Source: Polytrichum commune (lineage: Eukaryota > Streptophyta > Polytrichopsida > Polytrichales > Polytrichaceae). From it: a stretch of DNA of 64,000 nt. Location of the stretch: the NCBI GenBank assembly GCA_950295325.1, contig OX485806.1, forward strand, positions 44,201,169-44,265,168. Direction: 5' to 3'. The notes under the pieces were generated by a model. That model made no database searches, was not told the origin of the DNA, and worked only from the letters and a program-made list of their open reading frames with translations. Each line of letters begins with the position of its first letter. The stretch's first letter is position 1. Position numbers and translations under genes: made by a program. Shown one piece after another: positions 8,721 through 63,180 of this stretch.

Positions 8721-11555
8721 CTACGCCTTTTCTACAACACCTGCGAGCTCAAGAAGACGCGTCACCTCATTGTAGCTAAATGTCGGTGCATGAATGAATT
8801 TGTCAGTGGCGTAGTCAACCTTGCACAAATACTTGAACACGTAATACAAATGCTTGCATGAAACCCACTGACCCCTCATTCCCACTACCAAAGACAACAT
8901 TTTCGTAAAGTCTGGGCAAGTGCATTGCGGAATATTTGCAATGGAGACAAGGTATGTCTTCTCCTTTTTGGAAACTATGGATATGATGCATCCGTATCTA
9001 GGATATGGAATGGGAGTCACACCAACCACATAATATCATTCCATGTGTAATGCGCTCTCCTATTTATTCATGTGCTCTATTAATGGTGTTGCCATATTCT
9101 GTCGAACTGCCTTGGAAAACCATGTGTTTGGGTGCGCATCTGGGTTTGAAGGAATACGGAAATGTGAACGAGGGATGGGAAGGTTTGTCATTGTTCTCAA
9201 TCGGTGACGTGGTGACATTACATCTTTTTGTTGCAGTTGAAACCCTGCATCTTCCAATGCAAACACCTCCTCCCGTGTAAGGTTTGTACCAACGTTCACC
9301 GGCCACACCTTAAGGAGATTTGGCCAATCAAACACTCATTTGTTCTTGCTCCCCTTCACACATTGATTAATGTCATCTGCACAAAACAAAAAAATTGAAA
9401 GAACGTGGTTGTGGGAACAAAATTCCTTCTTCATGCATGTGTAAGTTGGCACAGGCATGCCATGTGTACTTTTCCCGACCTTAGCCCTACATGGATGTCC
9501 AGTATTTGCCTGCAAAGCTTGACACTTTTTTTTGGACGGATAAGGCAATCGTGAAATATACCACGCAGATTCCAGACAATCTGACTCCAACACATTGGTG
9601 GTGTGAGACACCACATTCTCATCATACTTGAAGGATTCCTCTATGCGTACCCTCGTTGACCTTGTATTAGGGTGAGGGATGGAGTAGTTCATTTTGTCGG
9701 GACGATGAGAATTATACTCAGATCCAGGCTGTAAATCTAGTTTCCTCTTGGTTGATCCAAACAACTCAGAGCCCTCCAATGCACAATCCCTTGTGTTAAG
9801 ACCCTTTGCCCCAGGGTATGACCTCATTGCCTCTGCAAAGAATTTGGGATTGCCGGTATGCACTACAACTTTGAGCTTCAATGATGCTTGATCTGGCCCT
9901 TTCCTTGAAAAACCCCCTTTAAGCCAAGAACGATAATTTGTGATCTACATGAATGCGCGGATCATGTCATCCACGGTTGCCTCATACAAACATGACATTT
10001 TGTTCCCTGATTGTTGCAGCCACTTGTTATGTACTGTTTCCGCTAGGTTGCAAGTTGGCATCTCAGCTGGTTGATCCAAAGTCAGATCCTGTAATACATA
10101 TTGAAAATATTTCTAGTTAAAAAAATGAAATGACACAACAATTTCATCAATAGTAGAGGAGGGACATTTGTGTATTGAAAGAAACTTACAATGAGCATGT
10201 GACCTCCCCATTGTCTATATTGATAATGCCAAAACCCCAACCATTCCGACAAGTTGTACATGCCCTCCTCGGTGGTTGCCCCTAATAACAACCACCAGGC
10301 CCGTATCACATGGTATTTGATGTCGGTGTCCGCCAAACTCTTGGCGTCCTTGTAGTCTTTACAAAGTTGTTTGTATTCATGCTGCAATGAAGGGCGGATG
10401 TGTTTTTGTGTTATTTTATCAAAATTGGCAGACCAATGGAAAAAACATGTACGCTCACGACCCTCAAGAGGAATGGATGTGTCACCATCACCGTAAATCT
10501 TCCGCACAACAATCCAATTTGCTTGGGCATTGTCCGCCATGAACCTTTTGAAATTGACATTGGGGACACCATTCTCCAGTATGACAACATTTAGATTTTC
10601 CCAAAAAATAGTCTGGGCCCGAGCATCCTCGGATTGCATATCACAACATGCTATTGTGATAACCTTGCAATATTTGATGTCATAGACGTGACACGCCATT
10701 GTAGTCCAATATTGTAAACGCTTCACATGGTCAAACATGATCCACGAATTTTCCATGTCTCCTCCACATTGCATGCGCTTCACCAAATCAACTCCGCTTC
10801 CAGCAAGATCCACCGATATCTTGAACACAAAGACCTTATCTCTGGACTGCCTGGAAGTTGACTATCATGCACATATTTGAACCTAGAGTGGTTTTTCAAC
10901 GCCATGATGCTATCCAAGGACCCCATTCCACTACGAATAAAACGTTTTGAGCCTGCCACGAAGTTCCTACGGTAAGGGGAAACCAAAGTGAAGAACTTAT
11001 CCATTACCACCTCCAAGGATGCTCCATGAAGATGGTTTTTTTCTCCTCAGAAAGGAGATTTGAGTATGTAATTTGCCAAAATTTGTTTATTGGCAGCCAT
11101 AACAATAGTTGAGTTTTTTGCAGTTGGAGTTTAGCCACCTCATTTGCCACACACTAGTAAGCCATGTCTAATGATTCACGACACACTCCAATAGACACAG
11201 GGTGGTTGTGAACACCCTAGTGGATACAAACACGGGAAATGTTTGACGATTGTGAATGGACATATATAATTTTTGCATAGCAAACATCAAGAAATATAGG
11301 AGCGGCATGGAAAACCTTGCACTGAACCTTGGATTTCTCTGGTGGAACTGTACCGACCATGAAAGGAGTGGGTGTAATACCGATCCATTCGGTAGAGTTG
11401 CGAACTCCTCCATTTTGTGAAGGATACTCACACGAGCCGTTAGGGCATTGGAGATGACCAACGCATGAAGACCTCCAGAAAGTCAAACCAAATTCATTTT
11501 GAATATTTGTTGTTTTGGTTCTACACCAAACATGCCCATCATAAGTCTTGTCCAT
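8721..11555 (-). pseudogene. MULE transposase, decayed, with SWIM zinc finger
   Basis: The transposase reads leftward in several pieces. 11555-11217 is an N-terminal Cys/His region (CVGHLQCPNGSCEY). 11016-10780 and 10828-10082 hold the catalytic core, with ITIACCDMQSED and FMADNAQANW as likely DDE aspartates, then ERTCFFHW. 9881-9060 is a Cys-rich middle part. 9029-8721 ends in a SWIM finger (CTCPDF ... WVSCKHLYYVF). Successive pieces are in different frames, for example near 10,828 and 9,335; some changes may be introns but others are clear frameshifts, so no intact enzyme is encoded. Mutator-type transposases cut and paste DNA in the nucleus; the SWIM domain is typical of the family. A sister relic is at 23.4-25.4 kb. 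Confidence 0.87.
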
Positions 11556-27956: not shown

Positions 27957-30417
27957 CAGAGCCCTCCATTGTCAATTGAAGTTGTACCCATGCCCATACC
28001 ATTAATATCAGTTGCAACCTTTGCCCACCAGTGCCAAACCTATGCCCATACTATAAACTTAAGGATGTGTGCATGGGAGAAAAAATTTATGAGGACTGCA
28101 AGTCTTGATTTGTCTGTAGGAATAAAAGGTCATTGACTATCGCACACTTCAGCCCCGAGAGCTTTGGGGTGAGAGTATTGCCAGCATTGGAAAAATTGCA
28201 TTATGATTTTGAATTACCTGTTGGGATATGCAAAATTTGAACGCGCTATGCGTGACATGATCGGGAAAGACAAGGCCCCTTTCAGATTCCACCACCAAAA
28301 AATACGGAAGCTAGCACTGTCCTTATTATTTGGTGGCAGAGTTGCGCGTACTGCCTCAATTACCTATTTCTTTTCAAGATCTTTCACTTTGTACTTCTCT
28401 TACATAGTAACCTCAACACGTGTGTCAAAGTTGTTGACACCTTGTTGAACATCCAGTTAAGCACTATCGTCTGTGTCATCCTCAAGATGATCGTACATAG
28501 ATATCTGATCACCAATGCGGCGCTTCTTTGTTTGCGGGGGGACATGGTCATTATCATTTCCCTCTGTATTGGCCGATAAATTGACCTCCATGCCAATCGA
28601 GTGCATATGTGCCTTCAATTTTTCCTTCGCTGCAACAATCATATGGTTGAGATTATCTTTCCATTCACAAGTGCTTTCAATAGGCGCTTACATGAGATAA
28701 TCGATGGGGGGATCTCTGCTCTTAATGATGGCACCATTGTCACCCACTTGATCATCGACAACAAGATTCAAAAGATTGATCAATTGAAATCTCCAAAATG
28801 CGACCTTGTGTAGTGTCAGCTCTTTGATTTTTTTCAAGATCGAGAGTTTCCATCTCAGAGGGTGTTAAAAAATCAATGAATTGCTTTAAAAAGTCTCTAA
28901 CATCATGGCAATTTTCCGCAGTTGATCACCCTGCTTCAGTAGCTTAATGACCTCGTTCAACATCTTGTCAACACTGTTCAAACAACGAAGAAGTGAGTTC
29001 CAACGTGGTGCGTTCTCTTGCTTCAGAGTCTTCGACAACTTGGATTGCAAATTATACTTTTTAAAGTACGCGACCAGATTCTTGCAAGCATCAATGAGAT
29101 TATACAAGTCTGACATGTGGGCCTCATCATGGTATCTATAAAACGGCTTGCTCCTCTAACCAGCAACTTGCTTCGTAGTCTTGTTGAAGACGTACGTTAA
29201 CGGGTTTGCAATCTTATGATCTATGCAACCTAATAGGTCAAACTCGCTTTCAACACCACCTTCACCAACAATGTTCGAGCCACCATCCGCCACAACAGTG
29301 ATTTGATAGAAAATGCTATTGAAGATGTCAAAGACGTCAAGAGCTTCCCTAAGCTCCTCCAAAACCATGATGGCGGTGTGGCTCGCGTCCTGAACAGGCT
29401 TGACATGCAATGTTCGATTAAACAGAACGAACTGTTCATAAATGTAGTGCACCGTGATCGACAAATATGACAATTTCTTGACATCGCCCGTCCAGAGATC
29501 GAGAGTAATTGCAATGGATACACTAGTTCCAAGGTGTTTGGCAACGATCTTTATCAACTTAGTGCACCCATTCTGGGCACGGGCCTGCACATTGCGTCCG
29601 ATCATAGTTGGATCAAGCAGTAGGTCATCAACCATGAGCCATTTTTTGTTGGCAAGACCGATGTCCAAAGATGTTTGAAAAAACCGCTTCAAACCATTTC
29701 CGGCTACATATTCAAATGGTTGAAGGTCAATCGTGCAAAAGTTGGCAGCCGCTAATGTCAACTTCTTCTTATCGGTTGTGCTGGCGACACCCTTGGTTGC
29801 AAATACATTCATTGTTCCACTTTGCGGTTCTTCATGACACTTGTGTTGAGCAATAGTGTTGGTATCAGTGGTTTTCTTGCGAGAAAAACACGCTGCAAAC
29901 TGGCAGTCCTTACCATGTTGCTGCACAATGCCAAACCTTTTCCACAGAGCTTGGTTTTGGCCGTGGTTCTTTGCGTTGCGAAAACATATGATTAACCTCA
30001 TTCCTCAATGACTTCTTCAATTCCTTCTCGATTAGTCGCACATCTACCAAACTATTGTCTGCCGCCATCTCTTTGCAAGTTGCAATATCCTAATAGGAAT
30101 AACACTTGGTTGTTTCACACAAACCACAATTTCAAAATAACTTAACTTCAACAATGTTTCTTTGGTGGTCTCGATCAGAAACTTGGCATGTTCCGCACTC
30201 CACAATAAGTCAGGACTCAAGTTAGGACTTAAGGCCGCTTAACTTGCTCCACTAATACAAAAATAAGTACATGCCCTTTGCCTACCCATGCCCACTTGGA
30301 AGAAATTCCCATTCCATACCCACTGGGATGCCGTGGCCACCCATGCCCACATTAAACCCATGGGCATGGGTGGGTATGGGCTTGGGCATGGGTATGGGCG
30401 CCCAATGCAAGGCTTTA
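27957..30417 (-). mobile_element. hAT transposon, near full length, decayed
   Basis: Left end CAGAGCCCTCCATTG and right end (reverse complement) TAAAGCCTTGCATTG match at 11 of 15. The flanking 8-bp duplication is GTCCTTTG (27949-27956) and GTCCTTTT (30418-30425), 7 of 8. Subterminal regions at 27,985-28,055 and 30,270-30,410 are loaded with CCCATGCCCA motifs in both orientations, as expected of transposase-binding subterminal repeats. The transposase occupies most of the interior on the minus strand. The MITE at 43,444 shares termini and subterminal motifs. Confidence 0.9.
28087..30068 (-). pseudogene. hAT transposase, decayed
   Basis: Translation probably began at ATG 30068-30066 (MAADNSLVDVRLIEKELKK), followed by a frameshift into the 30001-29156 frame. 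Domains in order: a BED-like finger (WKRFGIVQQHG ... CHEE); FCTIDLQPFEYVAGNGLKRF; the catalytic-core start ITLDLWTGDVKKLSYLSITV; VVADGGSNIVGEG with the second acidic residue and a following Cys-His (GCIDHK); CKNLVAYFKKYNLQSKLSKT and APRWNSLLRCLNSVD (29,110-28,950); and a hATC dimerisation tail GNTLTPKLSGLKCAIVNDLL ending at TAA 28089-28087. Stops and frame changes separate these blocks, so no active enzyme is made. Confidence 0.88.
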
Positions 30418-46894: not shown

Positions 46895-48640
46895 TGCCCT
46901 CGTTTGTTCAAGTTCAAGTTTATTGTTGCTGTCCCTCTTGTCAACTATTTTGGCTGGAGTGTGCTTCCTTCGTGTCTAAACTCACACAGACATTAAATTC
47001 ATCCATTCCAAAGGTCCACAATCTTTTGTGCTGAACAAAGGCAGTATAGTTGAAGGCGCAGGAGATAGCCGTTGGGAAGTAGTAGTATTCTGAGGCATCA
47101 TCACAAATAAGAATGAAGCATTAGGAAGACGATTCTAGCAGACTTTCTGAAGCCGAAAATGACGATATCAGAATAAAGGACTAGTGAAAGTCATCAACAT
47201 CCTGGCAGGTATGAGATCAGAAGATCTGCAAGCAAACAAACAAAACAGAGAAGATCTGACCAATTATGCACATAAAACTTGGTGCGTGCAGGTAGACATA
47301 TGCATAAAAAGAAGCACAGAAGGGCTTAATGAAAAGACGATTGAAGTATTGGAAATTTAAAGTCCAGCAAAGGAAGAAGTCAATGTCGAATAAAGGAATG
47401 GGGCCGTGAAGGTTCTTTCGTAGGGATCGCAAGTGTCTAGGCGACTGAGAAATAAATGCTCTCGTAAGAAAATGCGACAGCGTTTAACTGTTAAAAGTGC
47501 AATACGTGTGATGATTCTAAATTGACAGACTGAATGTATGTAACCTCTAAAGCAGGAGTAAATACGCTGCACCACATGAACTGAGGAACAATTGCAAGTG
47601 CACAGCGCACGTTCAGAGTATATATTTTTCTCTTCTTCCAATGCAGAGGAAAGTCCTGTCGAGGTTCATCCTCGATTACAAATCAATTACGAGCTGATAT
47701 TGAAAAGACATAGCTCTTTACAGGTTCAGTACAATGAGCAGACATTTATCAAACTAGTTGCCAGGCTACAAATTTTCAAGATCCTGGAGCTCAATGTCCA
47801 ATTTTCCAGCACCAGGAAATGGAAGATAGATTTCGACTAGACGACATGATAACGACATCCAGGCCTTTGACTTGAACAAAGAGTAAATTTAGATGTGCAC
47901 TATCATAATCCCCTACCACATCAGAAGTTTACTATGGTCGAGTAATCGATGCGGAAAGCTCAAGGATGGTCTGAATTTTGAATGAACCACTTCATTCTGT
48001 GCTTCTCATGTACAAACTTGCTCAGGAAGCTTAAAGCTGGATGTGCCCTTACATTTTGACATATAAGTTCTGCCTCGCTAGCACACTTCACTGCAACGCG
48101 CTCTTGCGATAAATTTGACACTTCACTGCACGATTCAAGAGGCAGCGATAAATCTCTCTTTACGCCGACTCTCGAATCTTCCATTCCATTTCATTCGATA
48201 CGCTTACAAAATCGTTGAAAAACGCCACGATCAGCATCTTTCCATTCCAACCCCTGATCCCGAATTCAAGAGTCCTCGAATTCGAAGACATCCAGTTCAC
48301 ACACAACGGGAAAAGAAACACTATCTTCCTGTAAGCGGAGGAATCACCTGTCACCAGAAGGCGTGCAATGAAACCCGATCTGTCGCTCGAAAGAGCAAAT
48401 TCAAAGTCCCCTTTCGTCCGAAAATTCCGTTTCTTTGTGAAATTCCTTTGCAAGCTATCTGGAATGACGTAATCGTTAGATTGTGCTCGGGTGCAGCAGC
48501 ATCGCAATGTTTTGTGCGATGTCAGTGGCGACCCATCGCCACCTCCATCGCTCTGGGGAACTTTAAAAGAGGAGACGTTCCGGAACCCTAACCCTAAAAC
48601 GAATTGGTGACGTGGCCGCATGAGAAGCCAGCATTTCGGG
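46895..48640 (-). promoter_or_regulatory. Upstream region of the kinesin fragment
   Basis: G+C content is higher than in the deserts and no domain-bearing ORF is present; overlapping ORFs of about 155 codons at 48115-48621 on both strands look accidental. 48585-48600 holds a telo-box-like AACCCTAACCCTAAA, an element common in promoters of plant genes active in dividing cells. I read this as former 5' leader and promoter of the kinesin gene, but no TATA element or transcription start can be assigned. Confidence 0.35.
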
Positions 48641-48884
48641 AGGAGGCTCTAGGCCTCCTCCTCGAAGAAAATCCTCTCTCTTCCCCCAAATTTTGTTTCC
48701 TTCAAAGGTGCTCCTGGTCTTATCCATCTTTATCCATAGTATATAAGAGATATGTTTTTAGAAATATCAAATTTCATTAAATATAATTTGAAGCTCCCTT
48801 ATCTATATACATAGATCATTTCACCATATATATATATATATTTATATATTGTCTTTGGGCTCAATCACAATCCTCTAGTTGAAA

Positions 48885-49090
48885 CTATCCCATTCCAATT
48901 TGATGCATTCATCCATTAATGTAATTGGAATTGTCTAATTCCAACATTATTCATTCATTGAAAGTTGTCTAAATCCAATTAATAACATCCATCCAATGGG
49001 AGTTGTCTAACTCATATTCATATATGCTAGTTGGAATTTGCCTAACTCTAACACAAAGATTTGCTAGGGAGGTGTCTAACCTCCAATGCA
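48885..49090. repeat. Left minisatellite array, orientation GTCTAA
   Basis: About five ~40-bp units contain a palindrome-like core: TTGGAATTGTCTAATTCCAA, GTTGTCTAAATCCAATT, GGAGTTGTCTAACTC, TTGGAATTTGCCTAACTC, GGTGTCTAACCTCC. They are spaced by ATTCATCCATT-like sequence. The reverse complement of this unit forms the array at 61,262-61,690. An (AT)n run is adjacent at 48,825-48,850. Confidence 0.75.
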
Positions 49091-49524
49091 AAGAGGTTGG
49101 AGTGCTCGGAGCAATGTATAGCAAGAGAAGCGCAGAGTAGTGTGCCCCTTCATAGGCCGGGAGGCTGCAGGAGGTCAAGGGGGAGAAGTAGGGTTGAAGC
49201 GTCGCTAAGTGATGCTCCTCGAAACTCCCCCCTCTCCACCCACCTCACCAAGCCCTAAAAGGCCGCTCAAACGGCCACCGCAACAACCTCGGGAAAGATA
49301 CATAAACAGAAGAGCCAGCAACACAACATCACTTCGGGAATACACACTTCGAGAGCTAGCAAAGATATCTTGACAAGACTGTGAGTAGAAGCGGGCCTCA
49401 GCGACACTGGATGCGATCTTGAGTAGGAGCGACCCTCAGTGATAGCTTGCGCGAGAGAGACTCCGGCTAGGGAGAGAGCACAGATCTTAAGACGGAGAGG
49501 ACACTGGAATGAGAGATCTACTAT

Positions 49525-50190
49525 GATACATGTGAGATCAGATAGCTAGAACTTGCAGATCTAGAAGCACCAACCGAGAGACACCAAAACCAACGCCAAT
49601 CTACAGATCCCACTGCAACCATTACCGAAGGAGCCACTTGGGCTGCACCGACGCCGCGGCAACCCAACATCCGAAGTTGAAGAGGGAACTTTCAGAAGCC
49701 GAAGAGATCCCACAGCCAACGCCCGAGGAAACTACACTGAGATACATGGGAGATCAGATCTCTGACAGTAGAGAACTTCATAGCTAGAAGCAGCACCCGA
49801 AAGACACCGAGAAGTACTACTGCCACTCTGCAGAAAACACCGAGAGACCAACGCCACTCACCGCAATCAACACCAAACGGAGCGACGTGGGCTGCAGCGG
49901 AGCTAAGGCGCCCCCAACAACAACTGAAGATTGAGCCGAAACCGAAGAGACCCCTCAACCAACGTCAGAGGAAAATCGTATCAAGATACTTGTGAGATCA
50001 GATAAGCTAAGCATCCGAGAGCTTTCAGATCTAGAAGCAGCAACCGGGAGACACCAAGAAGTACTGTTGCCACTCTGAAAAAATATACTGAGTAACCAAA
50101 CACCCTTTCTACAGCCAGCACCGAACGAAGTTGCTTGGGTTACGCAGGAGCTGCGGCGACCCCAACAACAGACGAAGAAGAGGACCAAGC
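49525..50190 (+). repeat. Three tandem 5' monomers (216-244 bp)
   Basis: GATACATGTGAGATCAGATA at 49525, GATACATGGGAGATCAGATC at 49741 and GATACTTGTGAGATCAGATA at 49985 head three diverged copies. Each continues with AGAAGCA-CAACCGAGAGACACC, a 'TGGGYTGCACCGG-like' GC-rich stretch and CCCAACAACAACTGAAG. They lie directly upstream of the coding part of the retroelement, the position where several non-LTR elements carry promoter monomers. Short ORFs here are shadows. Confidence 0.8.
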
Positions 50191-50511
50191 CCAAGCCGAG
50201 TCACAGAGAACTCTGAGTCACAGAGTTCACGAAGTCACGAAATCACAGAGTCACAAAGAAGAGACGCAAGGTACGAAGCTACTCGCCACCAAACTCTGCT
50301 GCCATAAGCAGAAGAAGAAGATGGTTGAAGCTGCTGTGTGTGAGACCACGAAGATACTACAAGCAGACACGGTGGTATTGGAGAACATCCACACCGAAAG
50401 AGTTGGTCGGAGGGGGAGAGCTAACCGAATTTGGAGCTGTTGGAGCTACTAGGAGCTACGAGCAATCCAACTTGTTAGAGGGCCATTGTACGACGAAATC
50501 CTATCCCAGGT

Positions 50512-50595
50512 AAGTTCCCTAACCACCCATTGCACATAGATTAGTTGCACACACATAACAAGTAGTCACATAGCAATTTCCTTTGTCAAAATAGG
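50512..50595 (+). other. Possible 5' UTR intron of the retroelement
   Basis: A consensus donor (CCCAG|GTAAGTTCC) at about 50512 is followed by a pyrimidine-rich stretch and a candidate acceptor TCAAAATAG|GAGG at about 50594, just before the ATG at 50603. Splicing is inferred only. Confidence 0.4.
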
Positions 50596-50602
50596 AGGTA
50601 GA

Positions 50603-51082
50603 ATGAAGGTTGCATATGCAACCATCCTTGCCTTTGTATTATGGCTCATAGTAGCCGCCCCATATTGGAAATTCTCTCACCGTGTCTCCTCTCAAACTCT
50701 TTGGAAAGGGTATTCAAGTTGTTGTTATGAAAACATACATGAAGATAAATCAACATCTAAAGTAGTACCACCATGTTTTTATGCCTCTCCATATTGGAAC
50801 CTTATGTATCTCATCAAAACTCCCACACACCTTAAACACCCAACACAACAATACACTAATATACAATATAAAAACTCAAAATTGTTGCATGTTTGGATAG
50901 CTAATAGTTGTTGCTACAAAACCAATTGTAGTAAATTATACAAAAAACAATCAAAACACTTCTTCCCAACAACCAATATCCAATTTGGCCCACAACTTAA
51001 TTTGTGGAATGGATTTGACGTAGGGATGATAAGAAGTAAAGACTTAGTTAAAACTTTACAAAAATCATGTCATTCATTTTAA
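50603..51082 (+). CDS. Cys-rich ORF with signal-like N-terminus, unidentified
   Basis: A 159-codon ORF begins MKVAYATILAFVLWLIVAA, a short hydrophobic helix behind one lysine that looks like a signal peptide or membrane anchor. A Tyr/Trp/Cys-rich part follows, with paired motifs APYWKFS and SPYWNLM and cysteine pairs SSCCYEN, SCCYKTNC. It is in the same frame as the next ORF (51161), separated by a TAA at 51080 and 26 codons, so it could be the N-terminus of ORF1 or a separate small protein. TTTGTTACAG|AATAAC near 51101 could be a splice acceptor. I know of no comparable product in Dualen-type elements. Unknown function. Confidence 0.45.
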   Translation: MKVAYATILAFVLWLIVAAPYWKFSHRVSSQTLWKGYSSCCYENIHEDKSTSKVVPPCFYASPYWNLMYLIKTPTHLKHPTQQYTNIQYKNSKLLHVWIANSCCYKTNCSKLYKKQSKHFFPTTNIQFGPQLNLWNGFDVGMIRSKDLVKTLQKSCHSF

Positions 51083-51160
51083 CATTCTATTTGTTACAGA
51101 ATAACTACATCCACCAATGTTGCCGCCACCACTAGGAAATTATTTGAGCAAAATGTTGAT

Positions 51161-52599
51161 ATGATAGATGCACTAGCAAACGGTCAAAAAAGACAAGTCG
51201 GTGTCATGATTGTGTCTAGCCAAAAGAAAGCAAAGGGCAAAGGAGTTGTACCCCAACGCCCCTTCTTTTGGTTGGGATATCATACGATGAATACACTTGC
51301 ATATGAAAATGGTGAAGCATTAGAACCAACATACTCGGTTAGTGAATTTGTTAAATTCGGAATAGAACATGATGAGGCATTAGAACATCTAGAAGCGGTC
51401 CCTTCCTTCCCATACATCCCCCAAGAGGCTAGGACTTCCAAAAGGATGGATGGTAAAAAAGGTGGACACTTCAATCTCACTCAAGTGCCCTTCGATATAG
51501 AAGTGGATGAAGGAGGGTTTTCTCTTCACTACCAAATAGCTATAACCTTTAAGCTTTGTGATCGGAACTTGTCAAGAGATGAAATATATGGAAAAACGGA
51601 AGCAAGGTTAAAAGCTATGAACTAGGAGAGATTCTAGGAGAACCTATAGCCATCCTTTGCTTCCATGGTTCAAAAAAGTGGAGTGGTACAATCAAACTCC
51701 ACCTCAAGAACCCAATGAAAGATGCCAATGATCTCCTACATGGCAATAGGTCATTTATCCTCAAGTTGGATAATACAACCTATTGTAGAGGAAAGGCATT
51801 CAAATCATTTGACTCTATAGCCATCGCAAGCTTGCTCTCAGTCAAAATCTATAGCCCAACATTCTAGAATAGAAAATGGTTCCAATTGCATGAAGAGATT
51901 GTCAAAGATAGCTTTAAGCGAGGGTATGAATTTGAAATTACCAATGTGCAAAAGAATGATAGTGTTGAATTTGCATGGATTAAAATCCCTTCTCCGGCCC
52001 AAGCAAAGAAGGTTAAAACTTTCAAAATATCATTTTTTAATGAAATTATGGAAGTACACTTTGCTAGTATGGAGAAACTCTCCGAAGATGACAAGGCCAA
52101 AAAGAATGCGGTAGTTTTAATTGCAAAGAACCTCAACAAAACCAAAACAACCACTGCCTTAGAGGAGGGAATAAAGAAACTCTTTGGGCAGGAAAATATA
52201 GCGGGTATTTTCTTCCGATTAGAGAAAGGGAAACATGTGGGATCATGCAATGTGCAATGTCTAAACGCAGCGGTCTACAAGAAATATGTGAAGCAAAATT
52301 ACCAAATTCATGGCAAATACATAGAATTTTCACCCCACCCCAAAAGCCTAGATGGAATTGACGCCCCCTCCCCAAAAGGACTTATTAGACTAGGGTTTTC
52401 TAATGTGAACACCGCACTTGCCAACACAATCCAAGCAATGGAGAATGCACCCTCGAAAGGATATACAAAAGCGGACTTAAGCAAAATGGTGGAAGAGGCG
52501 GTAAATAAAGGAGCCATAATAATTCGGAAAGAGATGAGCCTCCTTAAAGAGGAAATTATAGAAGAAGCAAGAATGTATGCCGACAAAGTACAAACATAA
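51161..52599 (+). pseudogene. Retroelement ORF1, RRM-like nucleic-acid-binding protein
   Basis: Two frames join near 51615: 51161-51625 (IVSSQKKAKGKGVVPQRPFF ... DEIYGKTEARLKAM), then a +1 frame with an in-frame TAG at 51865 (probably from CAG) running to TAA 52597. The second half has an RRM-like pattern: beta-1 AVVLIAKNLN, a helix GIKKLFG, NIAGIFFRLEKGKHVGSCNV (RNP1-like) and a last strand HGKYIEFSP, at about 52108-52340. A Lys/Glu-rich helix follows (KMVEEAVNKGA ... MSLLKEEIIEEARM), a possible coiled coil for multimerisation. RRM plus coiled coil is a common ORF1 architecture in non-LTR elements; the product would bind element RNA. Confidence 0.65.
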
Positions 52600-52689
52600 T
52601 CAAACCGCAACTGAAGAATTCAAATTGCACTCCTCCAAAAACAAATGCGCATCACTTTGGAAACTCTCCAAACCGATCACCCCTACACA

Positions 52690-53165
52690 CCTGACATTGA
52701 AGGCAATATGGACACGTCAAACTAGTTTTGACAACCGTAGCGTCAAGGAAAAATCAAATAAAAATATTTTTTTATACAAAATTCAACAAAAAAAAATTCA
52801 AATACCGTATAGTATTATTAAATACTAGAAGTAAAAAACGAGTTTCTCATACGTAACATCAAGAAAACATAAAGTAAAAGTATATTTATATACAAAAAAC
52901 AAAAACAAATACCGTATAGTATTATTAAATATTATACGTATAAAACTAAAATTTACATATAAAACATCAAGTAAATATAAAATAAAATTTATTTATATAT
53001 AAAACACAATAAAAAACAATACAGACACCATATAGTATTTTTCAATACTATACGGACAAAACTAGTTTTGACATATGCAATATCAAAAACATGTAATATA
53101 GAAGTATATTCATATATAAAATACAACAAAAACCTACACAAATACCGTATAGTACTATCAAATGA
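52690..53165 (+). repeat. ~115-bp AT-rich tandem repeats between ORF1 and ORF2
   Basis: ATACCGTATAGTATTATTAA-like heads start at about 52802, 52909, 53026 and 53142 (spacing 107-117 bp), each preceded by TATTTATATAYAAAA-type sequence and CATCAAG or its relatives. GTTTTGACATAT-like phrases mark unit boundaries. The heads contain a palindrome (CCGTATAGTA...TACTATACG). The first ~35 codons of the longest ORF2 reading fall inside this array, so the true ORF2 start may be further right. Confidence 0.75.
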
Positions 53166-54108
53166 TATATGTAAAATACACATAACACCCATTATAAATC
53201 CAAACAAAACTAGCATAGTACTTACCAATACCACTCTAAGAATACAAACAAATAAAATAAAAACAAAGACGCCCATTAAACACACAATAAACAACACACA
53301 AACAAATAAACAACCGGTAACACACAATAAAAAGACACTCACACAAACAAAAAGGCTACTCACAACTAATACAAAAATAATAATATTCACCAAACACCTT
53401 ATAAAACACCAAACAAAACACCAAGTGGCCTCGGCCTACCAGCCTCGTCACAAAACAAAACAAATAATACACCCACACCAACACAAATCTCATTACAACC
53501 GTTCTATACACATTAAATATAAATTTTATTCTAAATATAAACATCAATCGAAACATTGCCTTCAACATAAAACGGCCTCGGCCTCCCGGCCTTGCCACAA
53601 AAATAAATACAAATACCAAATCGCAAACAGCTGGACACCCAACACAATAACAGACCACACACCTAAAGACAACACAAATACACACTTCTCCACCAAACAA
53701 ATATCAAACAAAATACCCGCCTTACCTAACATTTTTACTACAATCAGATTCATACTTACCAAATATCTTAAAATAAACAAGAAAAAACCAAAAACAATAC
53801 AACTTCATGGGTACTACTTCATTAACAAACTAACATTATTAAAATGTGGAGATATAGAACCCAACCCCGGACCAATGCCTGATATTTTACACACACATCC
53901 CGCCTTACACAAAAAAAGAGCCAATGAATATTTTATTTCAAATACGATAAAATTGCAACCCGAATATCAACACATAACTACCACATTTGCACTCATACTA
54001 AAACACAATCATTCACTACATCACCAAGCAACCACTATGTACACATACTTACATCAATACATCCAAACACAAAGTTATTCCCATCAACTCACATACTATA
54101 TGCCTTAA
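53068..54108 (+). pseudogene. ORF2 N-terminal region with 2A-like motif
   Basis: A 346-codon frame ends at TAA 54106. Its first ~190 residues are Lys/Thr/His-rich and partly repeat-derived: a ~150-bp direct repeat (GGCCTCGGCCT) occurs at 53,427 and 53,573. From about residue 245 it reads YFINKLTLLKCGDIEPNPGP. This fits the 2A consensus D-(V/I)-E-x-N-P-G-P, with the usual hydrophobic run before it. The scissile Gly268-Pro269 bond corresponds to bases 53871/53872. 2A peptides make the ribosome skip that bond, releasing the upstream product. APE-type non-LTR elements of animals and trypanosomes carry 2A near the ORF2 N-terminus, the same location as here. Confidence 0.75.
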
Positions 54109-54109
54109 T

Positions 54110-54403
54110 CATCACTATAAGCCCCTCAATAAACACATGTAACAATATACTAGCCCAACCACACATTCACCACTTTAACAATATATGGACCAACACGCTT
54201 ATCATTAGGCTAGCCAACCTTAACAAACCCCTGAATGGCATATTCTAATACAACACCCATACACTACATTTGTAGAAAATAACCAAGATATAATACTCCC
54301 CAAAAATACTATACATACTGAACTATATGAATTCATCCACAGCCAAAAAACTCCACCCACTCTAGTCACATTACAAACAAAATTTCCCTATCTCCCAAAA
54401 AAT
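54110..54403 (+). pseudogene. Frameshifted ORF2 segment between 2A and APE
   Basis: In the main ORF2 frame, 54106-54330 is full of stops, but the +1 frame from 54110 reads coherently (EWHILIQHPYTTFVENNQD ... TELYEFIHSQKTPPTLVTLQ). It is broken only by TAA 54140, TAA 54176, TAG 54206 and TAA 54221, every one a single C-to-T step from a Gln codon. Return to the main frame occurs near 54345-54400. Whether this segment held a domain, such as the cysteine protease reported for Dualen, cannot be seen. Confidence 0.5.
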
Positions 54404-54519
54404 TAATAACCGAATCCCTCCGTTGCTTAGAAAACATAAATGAATATTCACACCCGCCTCCACTCCCAAACACCCCTACACCAACCCCAACAAACATCGT
54501 AAATACCTACCACGAAACA

Positions 54520-55773
54520 AATATGATAACTTGGAATGCCGCATCGCTTAACACAGCCTTACCAAATCTACAAAGCCTAATAAATTACTCCTTCAGAAAC
54601 ACTGCAATTATTAATATCCAAGAAACCAAATTGATAGCAACTAAATCAACAAAATACATACAAAACTTATTCCCTGAATACAAACTTATTTTTAACAACA
54701 CGCACGCCCTCACAAGATGTATACAACAAAGAATGCCTTACACCCCCGGAAGAGGTGGCCTACTCACACTCATTCATAACAAATACGCATTTCCCGGAAA
54801 CATCACCAAAATCCCATCACCAGCAAACATCTCCCCATATTTACAAATAATAAAAATAAACAATCACCCACTCCTACCATGGCTAATCTTATACATGTAT
54901 ATGCCCACACACTTAGAAGATATCCACCTCATTCCGTACCTCAAAACCGCAATCACTAATCAAATCACTGCACATCCAAACCACACGCACATCTTTTGTG
55001 GTGATTTTAACCGAGACATTGCACTCACTGATAGGCAAAATTATAACAACAATACACCACAACAACAAGAAGATATACAATAAAAAAACTTCACCACAAC
55101 CCTCAATCTAGAATATATTCCTACGGACACTATTCTCTCCAGACAAGGAGGCTATAACTACACATCAACCAGCCTTATAGACGGATTCTATATCAACTCA
55201 CTAGACAATAGCAGATTCACCTCCACAACAAACACAAACATGAATCTAAACTCAGACCACTATCCAGTCACTCTACACATACCCCTAAACACACTTATAG
55301 CTAGACCTCTACTCCCCACGAATATCACATCAACCAGAATACTAAACCCGATCCCTCCGAAAAACTTAGAAAAATTTAATATAGAATTTTTTGAAACATA
55401 CTCCACGCAACTAAACGAACTAACCAAATTACTAGAGGATCACAACCACCTCAACCCTGATCAATGGCAAGAAGCCTGTACAATACTAGACAATATTATA
55501 GAAAAAATCTCTGAAACCATTGAGAAAACCTGCAAAGCAGCCCCAATACCATCCCTCACGAACAAAACTGCACAGCAAGGTGGCTTCCTACCACGAAAGC
55601 TATCTAAAGAATGGAAAAAACACCTTCAAACATATCACCTTATTAGAAAAACTATATATATTGCAAAAAAACAACTCACACGGCAAACTCACCCTATCCT
55701 AAATGAAATTCGAAACCACAAAAATGTGCAAATCTCATACTCACCCACAACATCCACCCCTCCAAATGAATGA
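54520..55773 (+). pseudogene. ORF2: APE-type endonuclease domain
   Basis: This exonuclease-endonuclease-phosphatase fold domain nicks target DNA for target-primed reverse transcription. Motifs in order: MITWNAASLN (start of the fold), NIQETK with the metal-binding Glu at 54622, GRGGLLTLI, CGDFNRD (Asp 55003, Asn 55009), LIDGFYI (Asp 55180) and NSDHYPVTL (Asp 55255, His 55258). All catalytic residues are kept. A premature TAA at 55081 (from CAA) lies between GDFNRD and LIDG, and the frame is otherwise continuous. A TGA at 55771 (probably TGG) ends the next segment, a linker of about 160 residues toward the RT. Confidence 0.85.
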
Positions 55774-58023
55774 ATAGATATCATAGCTGCCATCGCAAAA
55801 ACCGCTTATAAAGACGCCAGGAAAATCACCACAAAATATACCAAAGACTGTATTCTAAAAGCTGTATCAAAATACCGACAAATGTATAAAAAAAACCCCA
55901 AAAAGATAAATAGGAAAGTCTTCAAACATTCCGAAATTTCCCCCCTAGACTCAATCACAGATAGACAAAACAATATCCTAACTAGCCCTGAAGACATTGC
56001 AAAAGAAATACACATCCAACAATCCATCAGTAACCGCCCAACAGTACCCACATGCCACTATTATAATACCCACCCAGCATACTGCACCTGTGGTGTTAGG
56101 CAATACCCATGGCACGACCTAAAAGGATTTACAATTGATCAACGTGGTGAACCCCAAATTCCCCTGCACACATACTTTGACCAAGAAACATACAACTTCT
56201 GCCTTAAAAACCTAGGCAACAACAAAGCCCCGGGCCCAGACAAAATTCCTAATTCAATCTTAAAAAATATGCCCCCACGATTTCACAGACTCCTTTATTT
56301 ATTCTTCAAACACTGCTACAAACAAAAACAAATTCCCGCATCGTGGAAAACTAGTTTAACAGTTCTACTATATAAGAAAGGTGACCCGTCAAAACTTACC
56401 AACCACAGACCTATCGCATTAGCTAACACCATATATAAATTATATATAAGCACACTAACCTCTATCCTTTCAGCTTATGGGGAAAGATACCAAATATTGC
56501 ATGACAGTTAAGAAGGATTCAGAGCCGAACGAAGAACATCTAGGCAACTTCAACTCCTCATTGCAGCATTAGAAGATGCTAGACTTACGAACCAAGATAT
56601 ATACATCCTCTACATTGACTTCAAAAATGCTTTCGGATCCATTGACTATGCAAGACTCTTAGCCATAATGAAGGACCTTGGTTATCCAATTGACGCCATA
56701 TACCTCATCGGAAACATATATTCACAAGCATCTACCATATTTACTGGAGAACACTTTGGTAAAATCCTACCTATCCCTATTCAAAGATGTACAATACAAG
56801 GAGACACTCTCAGCCCATATCTGTTTATAATATTTTTAGAACCCCTCCTTAGATGGCTACAACAAGGAGATAATGGATACACCTTCGGAACATCTAAAGT
56901 CAAAATTACATCCGCAGCATATGCAAACGACTTAGCAGCTATTGCTAGCAAACTAAAATCATTACAAGTACAATTAAACAAATTAGACAAATTCTACGAA
57001 TGGGCAGTAATGGACATTGGAATACCCAAATGCGCAGTGACCGGATGCCCTAATAAATCTAAAATGAACCCCATAACATTCAAAGCATGGATTCAATCTA
57101 CTAATATAAATTATAGAAACCAACCAATTCCAGTTTTAAATCAACACGAACCATACACTTATCTTGGAATAAACCTCGTACCTTCACTTAAATGGAAACC
57201 ACAAATAAACACCACTACAGCAAAAATCATCAAACAATGTCAAGCCCTTGCAGCATGCCCAACCATCATGAAGCAAAAAATCAACATGGCAGACACAATC
57301 ATACGTGCTGGAATAGCCTACAGCTTTTACGCAGTACCATACTCTATCCCGGCCATCAAAAAACTCGACAAAAAGATTATAGTACTCCACAAGACAATAT
57401 GCGCATTACCGAAATGCACATCTAATATTGCTACACAACTTCCACATGATCTATTCAGAATTGAAGCATTCTCACTACAAAATGCTTACCTGCGTTGTAT
57501 TGGAGAACAACTACAAAACTCCCTCAATGACAAAGGTAGACTTGGCAAATTTTATTATGGCTTGATACAATTTATACTCGCTAAATTTGGAGGCTCCAAA
57601 GAAATAGTCTGCATTAAATACCATCACTGCGTTAGATCACCTATCACTAGAACGTTATTCCTACTTAAACATGAAGATGGAGTCCACCTAAAAAGAACAA
57701 TAGATATTTTTCTAATAAACTTATCCCCACTCGAAACCGCATGGTTGAAAGAAACACAAAATCTACAGGGCCTAAATCCCAACACTTCACTTAAACTACT
57801 ACAAAAACTTCTATTGTATAATGTAATAAAATTAGAACAAATAACCATGCCTAATGGTGCCACCTTAATGAACCCATATACTTTAAAATATACCACTCCA
57901 ATCCTACAAACTCATAAAGAGTGCATTAAACATCGCAAACCAATTATTTTGCCACCCTTCCTGTCACCGAGAATGTCCACTCCCTTGCCCACACCACTAC
58001 CCTCCACGAACCCTAAAAAATGA
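55774..58023 (+). pseudogene. ORF2: reverse transcriptase domain
   Basis: The domain follows in the same frame. Motif 0/1: NNKAPGPDKIPNSIL at about 56217. Motif 2: LTVLLYKKGDPSKLTNHRPI. After the TAA at 56509 (CAA expected): EGFRAERRTSRQLQLL. Motif A: YIDFKNAFGSID (Asp 56617). Motif B: QGDTLSPYLFIIFLEPLL. Motif C: AAYANDLAAIA, where the first catalytic Asp of YADD has become Asn (56926, GAC to AAC), which would abolish polymerisation. The thumb follows (YLGINLVPSLKWKPQI) and further sequence runs to TGA 58021. Confidence 0.9.
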
Positions 58024-58762
58024 CTACACAATAATAAACCACAACATCCTTCCTCAACACCCAACCCCTCCTTTACACCCCCCGAACCCCCCGGTCCCCC
58101 ACCTACGTCCACCTCCCAATAATATACTTAAAAACCCCCGTCAATTTCCCATACACACAATACTTGACCACAAATAACGACAACTCACAAATTCTAATGG
58201 GATAAAAAGAAAATACACATCATATCTATGCCAATGGATTACTCCAAATAATAACACATACAACAAATGGCGTACCCAAAGAGATTTATTTTCCTATTGT
58301 GACGCATATACTAGTCGTCACAACACCGAACTACTCACCCAATACTATACGAAAAGACAACACAAACATTTTTCAAACATTATCAATGCATACTTCTCCA
58401 TAGAACAACAACGAGGCACTAGATATGTTATCCCTGCCACAAGTATCCCATTGGCACATATCTCCATTAATGAATGCAACCCAGAGAGTGACATCAAAAC
58501 AAATACTAACACTATCCAAATACAATTCGACGTCGCTCACATATATGAAGACAACGGTCGGCACCTCATTACCATACCAAAAACTAGATTACTGTGGTTA
58601 TGGAAACAATACCACCAAGCTAAAGATACCCCACATAGTCTAGAACCACCTACCCAATCATTTGAAATAAAATCGTGTGGCTATACCAAAGGTATAAATA
58701 CCGTATTCCAAAAAACGACCCGCTTCAACGTACTCAATATACAATACCAACTCCAATACTAG
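58024..58762 (+). pseudogene. ORF2 linker with two frameshifts
   Basis: After TGA 58021 the main frame stays open for about 32 codons of Pro/Thr-rich sequence. The coherent reading then moves to the +1 frame from the C-rich runs at 58,078-58,096 (PQFP..., RKYTSYLCQWITPNNNTY, ISINECNPESDIK, PKTRLLWLWKQYHQA) with one TAA at 58175. Near 58,670 it returns to the main frame (WLYQRYKYRIPKNDPLQRTQ). No domain recognised. Confidence 0.5.
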
Positions 58763-59835
58763 ATTTCCTAATAACATCATTCAATATTAACCATTCATAC
58801 TTCTCATCCCCATTTACTTGCCCCACACAATTCTCCCAATTCCACTCACCATTCTCCAGGGATAGAATATTTGGATCATTAGGAAAAATGTTTAACCAAA
58901 AATGGAAGGGAATTGGTTACGCCCACCCCCATAACGCAATAGACTTACAACAAACCATCCATTGGGCCCGCATTGCGGCCAAAAACGATCCAAATACAAT
59001 CACTATACTTATTTCAAAAGATATGGATTGGTACCATAATTTTAACCCATACACTAGCCCATTCTTGGACACATACATCATTGCCCACTTTGCAGCTGAC
59101 ACCATCATATACGAAGAACCCACAATTCCCCCCGAACTCAATATCACGAGGAAAGAATTATTAACATTACGAATACTCTGTATCCACCACCAAAACAATC
59201 ACATCGGTACCTACGAACAAATGAATCAACTCACCAACATAGCAAATAACCTCCAAATATTACAAATTCACACACAAATTGCACCACCCACCCCTGTAAA
59301 TACCACCGTTAACCCTAGCAAAAAATGGGCTAAATCTAACTATCCAAACACACCTGTAAATAATAACACACCTATTCCACAACTCCCTAATTACCAAACT
59401 AACTTACCATTAAAATTTCACCTTCAATTCAGCTACTACACAGACGGCTCTTTTATGAAACCCAAAGAAATTAACCCTGGAGTATGGAGAAGAGAAAGAG
59501 CCGGATATGGAATCTATAGCCCCAAGGGCCTTAACATCTCCAAAAGACTACATGGACACCAAAACATACTACGAGCAGAAATGATAGCAATACATGAAAT
59601 ACTAGCAACCATTAATACACTATATCCAAACGAACCAGCATACATATTTACCGACAGTCTAAACGTATTATACTTACTCAACACACAAATTAAACACCCC
59701 ACACTTCACAATAGCCACCCCGACCAAATTACCCTCGCTACCATGGTACAACTACTTCAAAACCAGACACAATCAATCACATTATACAAAGTTAGAGCCA
59801 ACGTCAACATTGACGGCAACGAATAAGCAGACAAA
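58675..59835 (+). pseudogene. ORF2: RNase H domain
   Basis: RNase H removes the RNA strand of the RNA-DNA hybrid. Motifs: SYYTDGSF (Asp 59443), LRAEMIAIHEIL (Glu 59578), YIFTDSLNVLYLL (Asp 59653), and VRANVNIDGNE followed by TAA 59824 and ADKLAKE (Asp 59830). The catalytic triad plus final Asp are present. The usual His before the GNExAD block is Asn (59800), and the GNE-x-AD position x is a stop (CAA to TAA). The ~250 residues before it (FGSLGKMFNQKWKGIGYAH ...) are unassigned. RNase H occurs in Dualen and in several plant L1-type LINEs. Confidence 0.85.
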
Positions 59836-60894
59836 TTGGCAAAAGAAAGGCTAGAACTAGAGCACAGAATTGCCATTCACCCATATGAGCATGCCCATGT
59901 CACCCCATACTACTACCAAAAGGACGTCTGGGCCTCAATGACGGACGTTCCTGATAAAGGCCCCGTTAGATTCCTAGAAAAACAAATTATTAAATATGAT
60001 AGGGAAAACAACTTGAAAAACATGGCCACACAAACCCCCAACACTTACAAATGGACAGGAAATGTAGATATAGATAAAGAACTTTCTAACGAATTATGGG
60101 AAAACCCGGAAATCACGGATAAACAAAAATCATGCCTCATCAAATTCCAAACAGGAACCTATATGGGCAATGCTCGAAAACAATTGTTCTTAGGTAGACA
60201 AACATATCCCTCTATTACATGCCCCATTTGCACCTCATACGAACCGGACACGTGGTTACATGTACTACTTATGTGTAAACAACAACATATACATTCACTC
60301 CACGTCAAAAGACACAACAAAGCAGTATGGGAAATTAGGAAACTACTAATCTCATCTAAAAAATCCCGATGTTATATTCTCATGAACGCGGGCACCTTCA
60401 ATAATACACCCCAAGAAAACACCGTTCCCAATTGGCTACTCCCTTGCACATGCGGTACACAAAGATGCCATTGTAACTCCAGATTCAGACCTGACATCCT
60501 CTATGTTAGAGGATTACCATACCAAAATGACCCCCCCATAGACTTGGACCCCAACCTCACCATACAATTCATCGAATTTACATACTGTAATGATAGATTA
60601 TCTCCAGAAACACTTGAAGCAAAAAATAACAAATACAAACCATTAATCGATAGTATTGCTGCTAGAGGATGGAAAGTTGACCCCCTTATTATAATCACCG
60701 CGGGCGCTAGAGCCACTACACACACTCCTTCAATGAAATCACTCGAAAATAAATTTAAAATACCCATGCCTATCATTAAAAATACCTTTAAAAACATTAA
60801 TACTATCGCTATAAAATATGCCATGGCTATCCTCCTACACAAAAGAAGAATAGAAAACCACCAACCACTACCCCAAACACTAGACCCCCCATAG
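59836..60894 (+). pseudogene. ORF2 C-terminus: CCHC finger and restriction-like endonuclease
   Basis: A 352-codon open segment without internal stops. CPICTSYEPDTWLHVLLMC gives a C-x2-C-x9-H-x4-C finger (Cys129, Cys132, His142, Cys147). VKRHNKAVWEI follows, as in R2-type elements. A PD-(D/E)XK-like core comes next: FRPDIL (Asp220), IQFIEFTYCNDR (Glu247), then EAKNNKYKPLI (Lys263, Lys266-Tyr267). This order, CCHC then K/RPD...E...K-x2-K-Y, is that of the restriction-like endonuclease of R2, CRE and Dualen elements. A tail of about 85 residues ends at TAG 60892. It would supply a second nicking activity beside APE. Confidence 0.78.
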
Positions 60895-61230
60895 ATAAAG
60901 CCATAAAACCTTAACAACTAAGCCACTCCACCTCATCCACTAACAATGCACTAGAGACCTGGCGACCCAAATCATATTAACAATCCCCTTAATAACAAAC
61001 CATTTTGGTTCTTGTTACTAGTGACTGGTGACTATAGTGTCTACTCTCGAAAGGGAGGAGTAGATCTTCACCTCCGTACCTTTGTCCTGTGGGCATTGGA
61101 TTGGAGGAGGATCGAACATACACTCCATTCACGTCGGTCTCCTCCGGAGACCGAAGTTTTTCTTCTTCCAATGCAAAGATCTTTGATCGAGAGATGTTCT
61201 AAAATAATTACAAATATTGATGAATGATTG
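60895..61230 (+). other. Probable 3' UTR of the retroelement
   Basis: Contains GTTACTAGTGACTGGTGACT and, at 61135-61153, a perfect 8-bp stem with 3-nt loop (CGGTCTCC-TCC-GGAGACCG). No poly(A) or short 3' tandem tail. A structured 3' end recognised by the reverse transcriptase is possible. Confidence 0.45.
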
Positions 61231-61261
61231 AATATTCTAACCATATGTGCCAGTGTGTAAG

Positions 61262-61690
61262 CAGAGGATGATGGGAGCTAGACAATTCCTAGTTGAAGAT
61301 GGATGGATTGGAGTTAAACAACTCCAGATTGACAACATGTGCATTAGGGTTAGACAACTCTGCATATAGTGCATTGGAATTAGACCATTCCATATTGAGA
61401 ACATGTGCACATGAATTAGACAACTATCAATGAGGTGCACTGGAGTTAGACCACTCCAGAATTGGAAAGATGAATGTTATTCATTGGAGTTAGACAACTC
61501 TAGTAAATAGATAAATCTAGTTGAAATTATACAGTTCCAACTAGAAGAATGGTTGGATGAACCAAGTTGGAATTAAACAGTTCCAACTGGAATAAATGAT
61601 GGATGTATTTAGTTGGAATTAGACAGTTCCAACTAGAAAGAATGATGGATGAAGCCAATTGGAATTAGACAATTCCAATTGGAAGAATGA
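61262..61690. repeat. Right minisatellite array, orientation TTAGAC
   Basis: About eleven ~40-bp units with palindrome-like cores: GGAGTTAAACAACTCC, GGTTAGACAACTC, GGAATTAGACCATTCC, TGGAGTTAGACCACTCCA, TTGGAATTAGACAGTTCCAA, TTGGAATTAGACAATTCCAA. Spacers are GAATGATGGATGAA-like. This is the reverse complement of the 48,885-49,090 array unit. Two further cores in the left-array orientation appear at 62,480-62,570. Confidence 0.8.
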
Positions 61691-63180
61691 GATTGAGATA
61701 AGAGATGGAAGAAAGTTCTAGAATAACCAAAGATAGAAGATTCATAGTAGAACTAAAAGATAGAGCTAAGAATAAAACACTTTACTATATGTAAAAACAA
61801 TAAATGAAAGTAATGCTTTGGCATAAGAGGTAGCTCGAGGGAGGAGAGAGGATATTTTTTGTCTGTCTCCTATGGTCGGGCGGTTGAGCTTAGACCAAGA
61901 CCTACTTGGTCTACGATTGTAATTTGATGTTACAAGATAAATAAACAAAGTGTTTCAACTTGTCATTTTGATTGATAATTGTGATTGTGAAAGTAGGTGA
62001 CAAATCTGTGAGAGGTTTGTTGGCTCTGTCTGTAGGACAAAGACTATGCATCAACTTCTCTGTTTCAATAGCAAATTTCCTAACCACTTTGCATTCACAC
62101 TTGAATGTTACTTGTTCCCGTTATTTTTTGTCCAATTTATTCAATGTGGATGTTAACTATAGTTATATATATATATATTTAGTCAACCATAGTTGCTCTG
62201 AAAAATGTATTGAAAAAAACCTAGTTTATTATAATTATTTTGGCAGTTGTTGATTATTTATTTTTAAACTTTTGGGTGATAAATGAGTAGCTTCAATCCT
62301 TGACCCCGCATTTGAGAAGAAGGAGCACAAATTCCAAAAAATGTTTGGATATAGGTATAGTAAATAACCATGGAGTGACATAAGCAAAGTGGACAATTAT
62401 AGTTTTAGTCTTTCACAAGAAAGGACAAAGCCTCACGGTTCTACCATTTTCTTGTTACAAATGTGTAATTCATGTGCATAATTCCTTCATAGGTTGTCTA
62501 ACCCGTGTGCACCATTCTCTCTTGAGGTGTCTGACCCAATTATTTCTTTGGAGTTGTTTGACTCCAAACACCATACGCTAACATGCTAAATACAACAAAG
62601 CATGATTGGTTTTTATTTCGTGTGTAATCCAACATTGAATTTATCAATCCGGGTATATCACAATCGTGCATTTGAAACCAAATTTATTTTGTGAGTGTAG
62701 TTTCATAAATCATCAATTGTAGAATTAAAAAAAACCTTCATTTATGATGTGTGCTTAATGAGGATCCCAAACCAAACACCATAAAGACACATATTTAAAG
62801 TAGATTGGAATATATCTTCAAATTTTTTTTGAGTTCTCCACAATCAATAGTGGACATAATTAGAAAAACTTGTATATTCTATCAAGAAATAAACATACAT
62901 GCATTTTTGATAACAAAAACTACACAAGAGAAAGTTTGATTTTCAGTCCCAAATTTTTTAGTGATGCTTCATCATAGATTTGCTAATGCAACACAAGTTT
63001 CATTGTGTAAATCTAATCGGTAGAAGTTGGAAAACGAACCGAATAACAACCAAATATGTACATACCTTAAATATAGTGGCCGTCGACGGGAGGGAACTCA
63101 GTCGGAAACTTCATGTCTCTAGAGTTAAGGTTCAGAGTTGGAGTACCTCTTTCTGTGGAGCCTGCGACGGACTTCTTGAC
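61691..63180. other. Interval upstream of the PDAP1-like gene
   Basis: AT-rich with a (TA)n run at about 62,167 and GGAGTTGTTTGACTCC-type cores at 62,480-62,570. No gene recognised. The last ~150 bp become G+C richer and may hold the promoter of the gene at 63,277. Confidence 0.35.

Follow-up and report, generated by a model that had tools for sequence, protein, structure and literature searches.

We analysed a window of 64,000 nucleotides (contig OX485806.1, positions 44,201,169 to 44,265,168), which belongs to a contig of 59 Mb in an assembly of 407.8 Mb, and find that it very probably holds a copy, now dead, of a moss retrotransposon with two nucleases, a non-long-terminal-repeat (non-LTR) element of the Dualen group that has moved very recently. 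The element, 12.07 kb long and damaged, occupies positions 49095–61166 of the forward strand, the strand of all its parts given below. Its second open reading frame (ORF2) encodes both an apurinic/apyrimidinic endonuclease (APE) and a restriction-like endonuclease (RLE). An earlier note on this DNA had claimed such a dual-endonuclease element in a plant lineage; the claim is supported, and APE and RLE also occur together in a stop-free copy elsewhere in the genome (the C5 copy). The interval proposed in that note, 53068–60894, holds for ORF2 and not for the whole element, whose limits come from target-site duplications (TSDs) and homology.

ORF2 is ordered as an N-terminal piece, a 2A motif, APE, reverse transcriptase (RT), a domain resembling PCIF1 (a cap-specific adenosine methyltransferase), RNase H and a CCHC knuckle with RLE. 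The APE (EEP) domain (54520–55323 by profile limits, one internal stop) carries QETK (54619–54630), GDFN (55000–55011) and SDHYPV (55252–55269) where the earlier note had placed them. Exo_endo_phos matches the window at 7.2e-5 and 23.1 bits, just short of the 24.5-bit cut-off, and matches the relative P0028 above it (3.4e-11). RT (56137–57342 by profile limits, one internal stop) and RNase H (59377–59847, one internal stop close to its end), both proposed before, pass their Pfam cut-offs (RVT_1, 1.6e-15; RNase_H, 7.4e-7). A frame-2 stretch, comprising a Cys-rich motif after RT and then a linker, lies at approximately 57900–58680; it was compared by eye with the relative P0104. The window also contains a PCIF1_WW match (1.1e-9, above the Pfam cut-off) that was absent from the earlier note, and the PCIF1-like domain lies at 58672–59181. 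The CCHC knuckle and R2-type RLE (59950–60867) show the C-terminal motifs at the places named previously, CCHC at 60220–60276 and RPD...E...K-x2-KY at 60487–60636. The RLE has no Pfam match in the window; it matches R2 by profile and by fold, as the reading of the earlier note demanded, with the CCHC, RHN and PD-(D/E)xK residues present. A single-sequence PDB search with the RLE gave a best E of 0.25.

The window copy is dead because of its stops, its frame breaks and the YAND that occupies motif C of its RT. In the frame-1 read-through codons 251, 481, 727 and 1832 are stops, the frame-2 stretch (about 57.9–58.7 kb) holds a further one, and the frames are broken between the 2A motif and APE, in keeping with the earlier description of one frame with a few stops and frame excursions. 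Upstream lie a 5' region (49095–50602) with patchy homology to that of the C5 copy, for example at 49162–49267, and ORF1 (50603–52722), which is damaged by stops and a frame change and was located by tblastn of the C5 ORF1 (E 1.5e-155 and 9.7e-56). ORF1 matched no Pfam family over cut-off, no NCBIfam family and no PDB entry. In the window copy four repeats of ~107–117 bp each (52719–53220) separate the two reading frames. Comparison of the 3' ends of five copies delimits a 3' untranslated region (60895–61166) with a short (CTT)n tail and no poly(A).

The element is bounded by an identical 13-bp TSD (49082–49094 and 61167–61179), detected by searching 47500–49600 against the 3' flank, and its homology to other copies runs from 49162 to 61167. 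A second left candidate (47627–47645), in which 18 of 19 letters match the element's 3' junction, lies ~1.5 kb upstream of the 5' end and was set aside because 5' homology begins at 49162 and 49082 adjoins it. Duplications of 8 and 9 letters, the only matches under element limits that were too short, were likewise rejected. Confinement of the element to an A/C-rich block at 52.7–61.0 kb was dropped since other copies show ORF1 and a 5' region upstream. Neither blastn nor tblastn found a second copy in the window.

The genome was searched with the C-terminal part of the element, and 60 of 6,845 candidates were scored. All 60 match, 27 of them, counting the window, at 88–100% identity and 33 at 82–83%, and they are spread over all seven large contigs. 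Intact copies, which the earlier note had suggested looking for, are present: three of the 82–83% copies carry one stop-free frame of 2,625 amino acids. Counted from the first Met, these three have an ORF1 of 733 and an ORF2 of 2,576 amino acids. In the C5 copy the ORF2 landmarks are NPGP at residue 233, APE at 453–719, RT at 993–1393 with YADD at 1253, the PCIF1-like domain at 1837–2006, RNase H at 2072–2229 and RLE at 2263–2568. Chance is excluded because there are 60 scored matches in the element's own genome, three of them in one stop-free frame. The three ORF2s differ from one another at just 29–50 of 7,728 nucleotides, from which we infer recent movement. TSDs were found in all five copies searched, 12 bp long in the C5, C2 and C1 copies and 13 bp in the C6 and window copies; by our own estimate ~0.01 or fewer matches of such length are expected by chance per copy within the stretches searched. 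The flanks differ among the five insertion sites, so that no site specificity is apparent among them. Young copies end in (TATC)n tails, those of the window's subfamily in (CTT)n.

We searched 5.8 billion proteins and obtained 101 matches to the RT part and 82 to the C-terminal part. These relatives were gathered with the window as query, so the sample leans towards the window's type; the domain profiles match the window by construction, since its own pieces seeded them, and the independent evidence is their match to many relatives. Among the 182 relatives examined, all 41 proteins that show APE, RT, PCIF1-like domain, RNase H and RLE have them in that order. At least 1,000 residues follow RT in 60 of the 81 RT-bearing matches P0003–P0083, and the PCIF1-like domain is found in every one of these 60 and RLE in 56. 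No PCIF1-like domain was found in the 20 more distant RT matches (P0084–P0103). One of them, P0084, is sister to the rest of the clade and has APE (2e-7), RNase H and RLE with no PCIF1-like domain detected; it may mark a time before the domain was gained. Other modules recur: a PHD finger between RT and the PCIF1-like domain in P0012 and P0028, and, ahead of APE, Josephin or OTU in P0028 (just below cut-off), P0031, P0049 and P0065. A scan of viral contigs gave no relatives. One C-terminal match, P0129, is filed under a metagenome bin of the archaeon Candidatus Nitrosocosmicus and is probably a wrongly binned eukaryotic piece.

Approximate ratios of nonsynonymous to synonymous substitution (dN/dS), obtained by comparing the C5 copy with five members of the window's subfamily, are 0.08–0.11 for the PCIF1-like domain, 0.10–0.15 for RNase H, 0.07–0.09 for RLE and 0.20–0.25 for a 55-codon linker. 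Between the C5 and window copies they are 0.10 for APE, 0.06 for RT, 0.16 for the region around 2A and 0.12 over 218 codons of ORF1 (dS 2.09, near saturation). Judged by these sequence comparisons, every part tested is kept by selection, both endonucleases alike. It is conceivable that one endonuclease is a passenger and the other works alone, as descriptions of other non-LTR groups give them one of the two, APE or RLE (PMC4640811). We nevertheless consider a passenger unlikely: APE (0.10) and RLE (0.07–0.09) are under similar constraint, and the motif residues of RLE are retained among 76 aligned sequences (D in 75, E in 73 and, in the aligned column, K in 60).

The PCIF1-like domain has the fold of PCIF1 (6irv, 6irw and 6irx). 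The catalytic NPPF of PCIF1 is absent, being replaced by HPHN in both the window and the C5 copy. Embedded here in a retrotransposon polyprotein, the domain most likely serves, judging from its fold, to bind the element's RNA at its capped 5' end and does not act as a methyltransferase. An active enzyme with an altered motif, marking the element's own RNA at the cap with N6,2'-O-dimethyladenosine (m6Am), would also account for the strong constraint and the fold, and P0027 and P0023 read SPPF and VPPF at the NPPF position. Against this, beyond the HPHN of the window and C5 copies, only 1 of 96 PCIF1-like domains fits [NSDH]PP[FYW] and 16 read NPEY, and we regard methyltransferase activity as improbable. 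Our literature search, which covered few subscription papers, found no description of a PCIF1-like domain or a 2A motif in Dualen, and the word retrotransposon is absent from a history of N6-adenosine methyltransferases (PMC8868631), a weak indication of novelty.

The 2A/StopGo motif, CGDIEPNPGP, lies in the ORF2 frame upstream of APE (53845–53874). The C5, C1 and C2 copies have it too, their NPGP at residue 233 counted from the first Met, as does L016, the C6 copy. A place before the enzymatic domains is shared with the 2A motifs of other non-LTR elements; here the motif stands in dual-endonuclease elements of moss and algae. Its core fits (D/G/C/N)(V/I)ExNPGP, the form given in PMC12846837, where the accessible text reports no natural use of 2A by plant viruses. 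The core motif is likewise shared with the 2A-like sequences that occur in non-LTR elements (PMC4981915).

These features suggest how the Dualen-group element would have moved. A single transcript would yield an ORF1 and an ORF2 protein, and StopGo would be predicted to give two products from the latter, a small peptide of ~235 residues and an enzyme of ~2,340 amino acids. The enzyme would bind its own RNA, nick DNA and prime reverse transcription at the nick, that is, by target-primed reverse transcription, which is established for R2 and L1 and is proposed here because the element belongs to this family. RNase H would strip the template, and the second strand would be cut 12–13 bp away. The conserved PCIF1-like domain, lacking NPPF, would most likely recognize the capped 5' end of the element RNA. 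More tentatively still, and knowing that this may well prove wrong, we suggest that dual-endonuclease elements are no transitional relics but a design that succeeds and continues to multiply in mosses, that APE and RLE might make one cut each to give the 12–13 bp TSD, and that a captured, non-catalytic PCIF1 might select full-length, intact capped RNA. Dualen has been cast as an intermediate in an account of APE replacing RLE in long interspersed nuclear elements (PMC4640811).

The position of the RT was taken from a maximum-likelihood tree with 81 rows, with two R2 fragments as outgroup and ten long end branches flagged, P0084 among them. The window and P0003 are joined at 100/100 within a clade of 62 rows (support 100/96) that includes proteins of Haematococcus, Parachlorella and Pleodorina. 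Outside this clade stand two L1 rows from Pinus and further L1-like rows, as the earlier note's reading required, and the clade is separate from R2. Compared as a single sequence, the window RT reaches 2e-14 with an R2 chain and 7.5e-5 with human L1. A plant L1 whose C-terminal zf-RVT/RNase H region was misread as RLE is ruled out by the tree and by the profile and fold match of RLE to R2, even though plant L1 also has APE, RT and RNase H, and RLE-profile matches turn up in 4 of the 20 outgroup RT matches (P0084, P0086, P0093 and P0101), three of them weak, 58–78 residues long and in proteins with PF13966.

We take the host to be a moss. The genome has four SAM_LFY (LEAFY) matches, the best at 7.1e-33; 14 control genomes, of which the named ones are prokaryotes, gave no match. 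All three LEAFY loci fetched read GLDYLFDLYEQC, with an aspartate at the DNA-binding site, a mark of moss (type II) LEAFY; LEAFY is not known outside land plants and streptophyte algae. Where the strong RT matches have named hosts, these are green algae (Haematococcus lacustris, Parachlorella kessleri and Pleodorina starrii; most other matches lack a host name), which would suit an element in algal DNA assembled with the plant. Such contamination is rejected on the size of the 59-Mb contig, the spread of scored copies over all seven large contigs, the 37% GC and CpG depletion across the whole window, a hAT transposon in the window that shares 56% identity with a Marchantia protein across 49% of the transposon's length, and LEAFY on contigs C1 and C7.

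Dualen/RandI was reportedly first described by Kojima and Fujiwara in 2005, as having a cysteine protease. The moss element resembles Dualen/RandI in that a single polyprotein unites APE, RLE, RT and RNase H, and in an RT close to green-algal relatives. It differs in its moss host, in an ORF1 without a known domain and in that no cysteine protease was found. The definition of Dualen in the accessible text of PMC4640811 does not include the protease. Tails of short repeats are another likeness, those of RandI being (ATT)n and (CTATTT)n (PMC3747384), and the PCIF1-like domain and 2A motif of the moss element go unmentioned for Dualen/RandI in the accessible portions of the papers cited. Dualen or RandI has been placed in green algae (PMC4438587, PMC8226300 and PMC3747384), in one survey under green algae only (PMC4438587), in all core-Reinhardtinia species studied (PMC8226300) and later in cryptophytes (PMC12747079). 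With the R2 group (9nl2, 9nl3 and 8gh6) the moss element shares the CCHC–RLE fold and motifs, and its RT as a single sequence finds a better match in R2 than in human L1; unlike R2 it has APE, RNase H and a PCIF1-like domain, and its five insertion sites differ. From plant L1 it is set apart by the clade of its RT and by its RLE, PCIF1-like domain and non-poly(A) tail.

Several points weigh against the Dualen assignment and the proposed mechanism. The rows of the RT tree include no published Dualen sequence, and neither reading frame of the C5 copy, ORF1 or ORF2, gave a match to the cysteine proteases Josephin or OTU. The dN/dS ratios are rough, with dS near or above 1, and those for APE and RT use the dead window copy. 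What speaks for cap binding is the fold. NPGP precedes APE in 16 of the 48 relatives with at least 200 residues there; 15 of the 16 meet the 2A consensus, and 11 of the 15 are Haematococcus copies. The five-of-five count of TSDs omits the fetched copies L017 and L018. Moreover, the 5' ends are not common to all copies: TSD-based starts fall at ~4.5–5.2 kb of the joined stretches, before alignment begins, the C1 copy aligning to C5 and C2 from ~6.5 kb and C5 to C2 from 5.4 kb.

A moss genome with at least 60 matches and three near-identical stop-free ORF2s would make the role of the two endonucleases testable in tractable plants. Present in 60 of 60 long-enough relatives, a PCIF1-derived domain would be a captured cellular module central to a retrotransposon. 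Cap recognition, if true, would be a testable idea for how such elements pick complete RNAs.

The flanks of the window copy (61250–61710 and 48900–49080) contain short GGAGTTAGACAACTCC-like repeats, in opposite orientation by eye, and the element seems to have landed in an array of them. The window gave no tRNA or Rfam matches. At 8800–11200 on the reverse strand is what looks by eye like a broken MULE-type transposase, two ORFs of which were tried without a Pfam match. The hAT-type transposase mentioned above is decayed and lies on the reverse strand at 28172–30004; its nearest named relative is that of Marchantia, one of two named hosts among 16 matches, the other being the orchid Dendrobium (36%).

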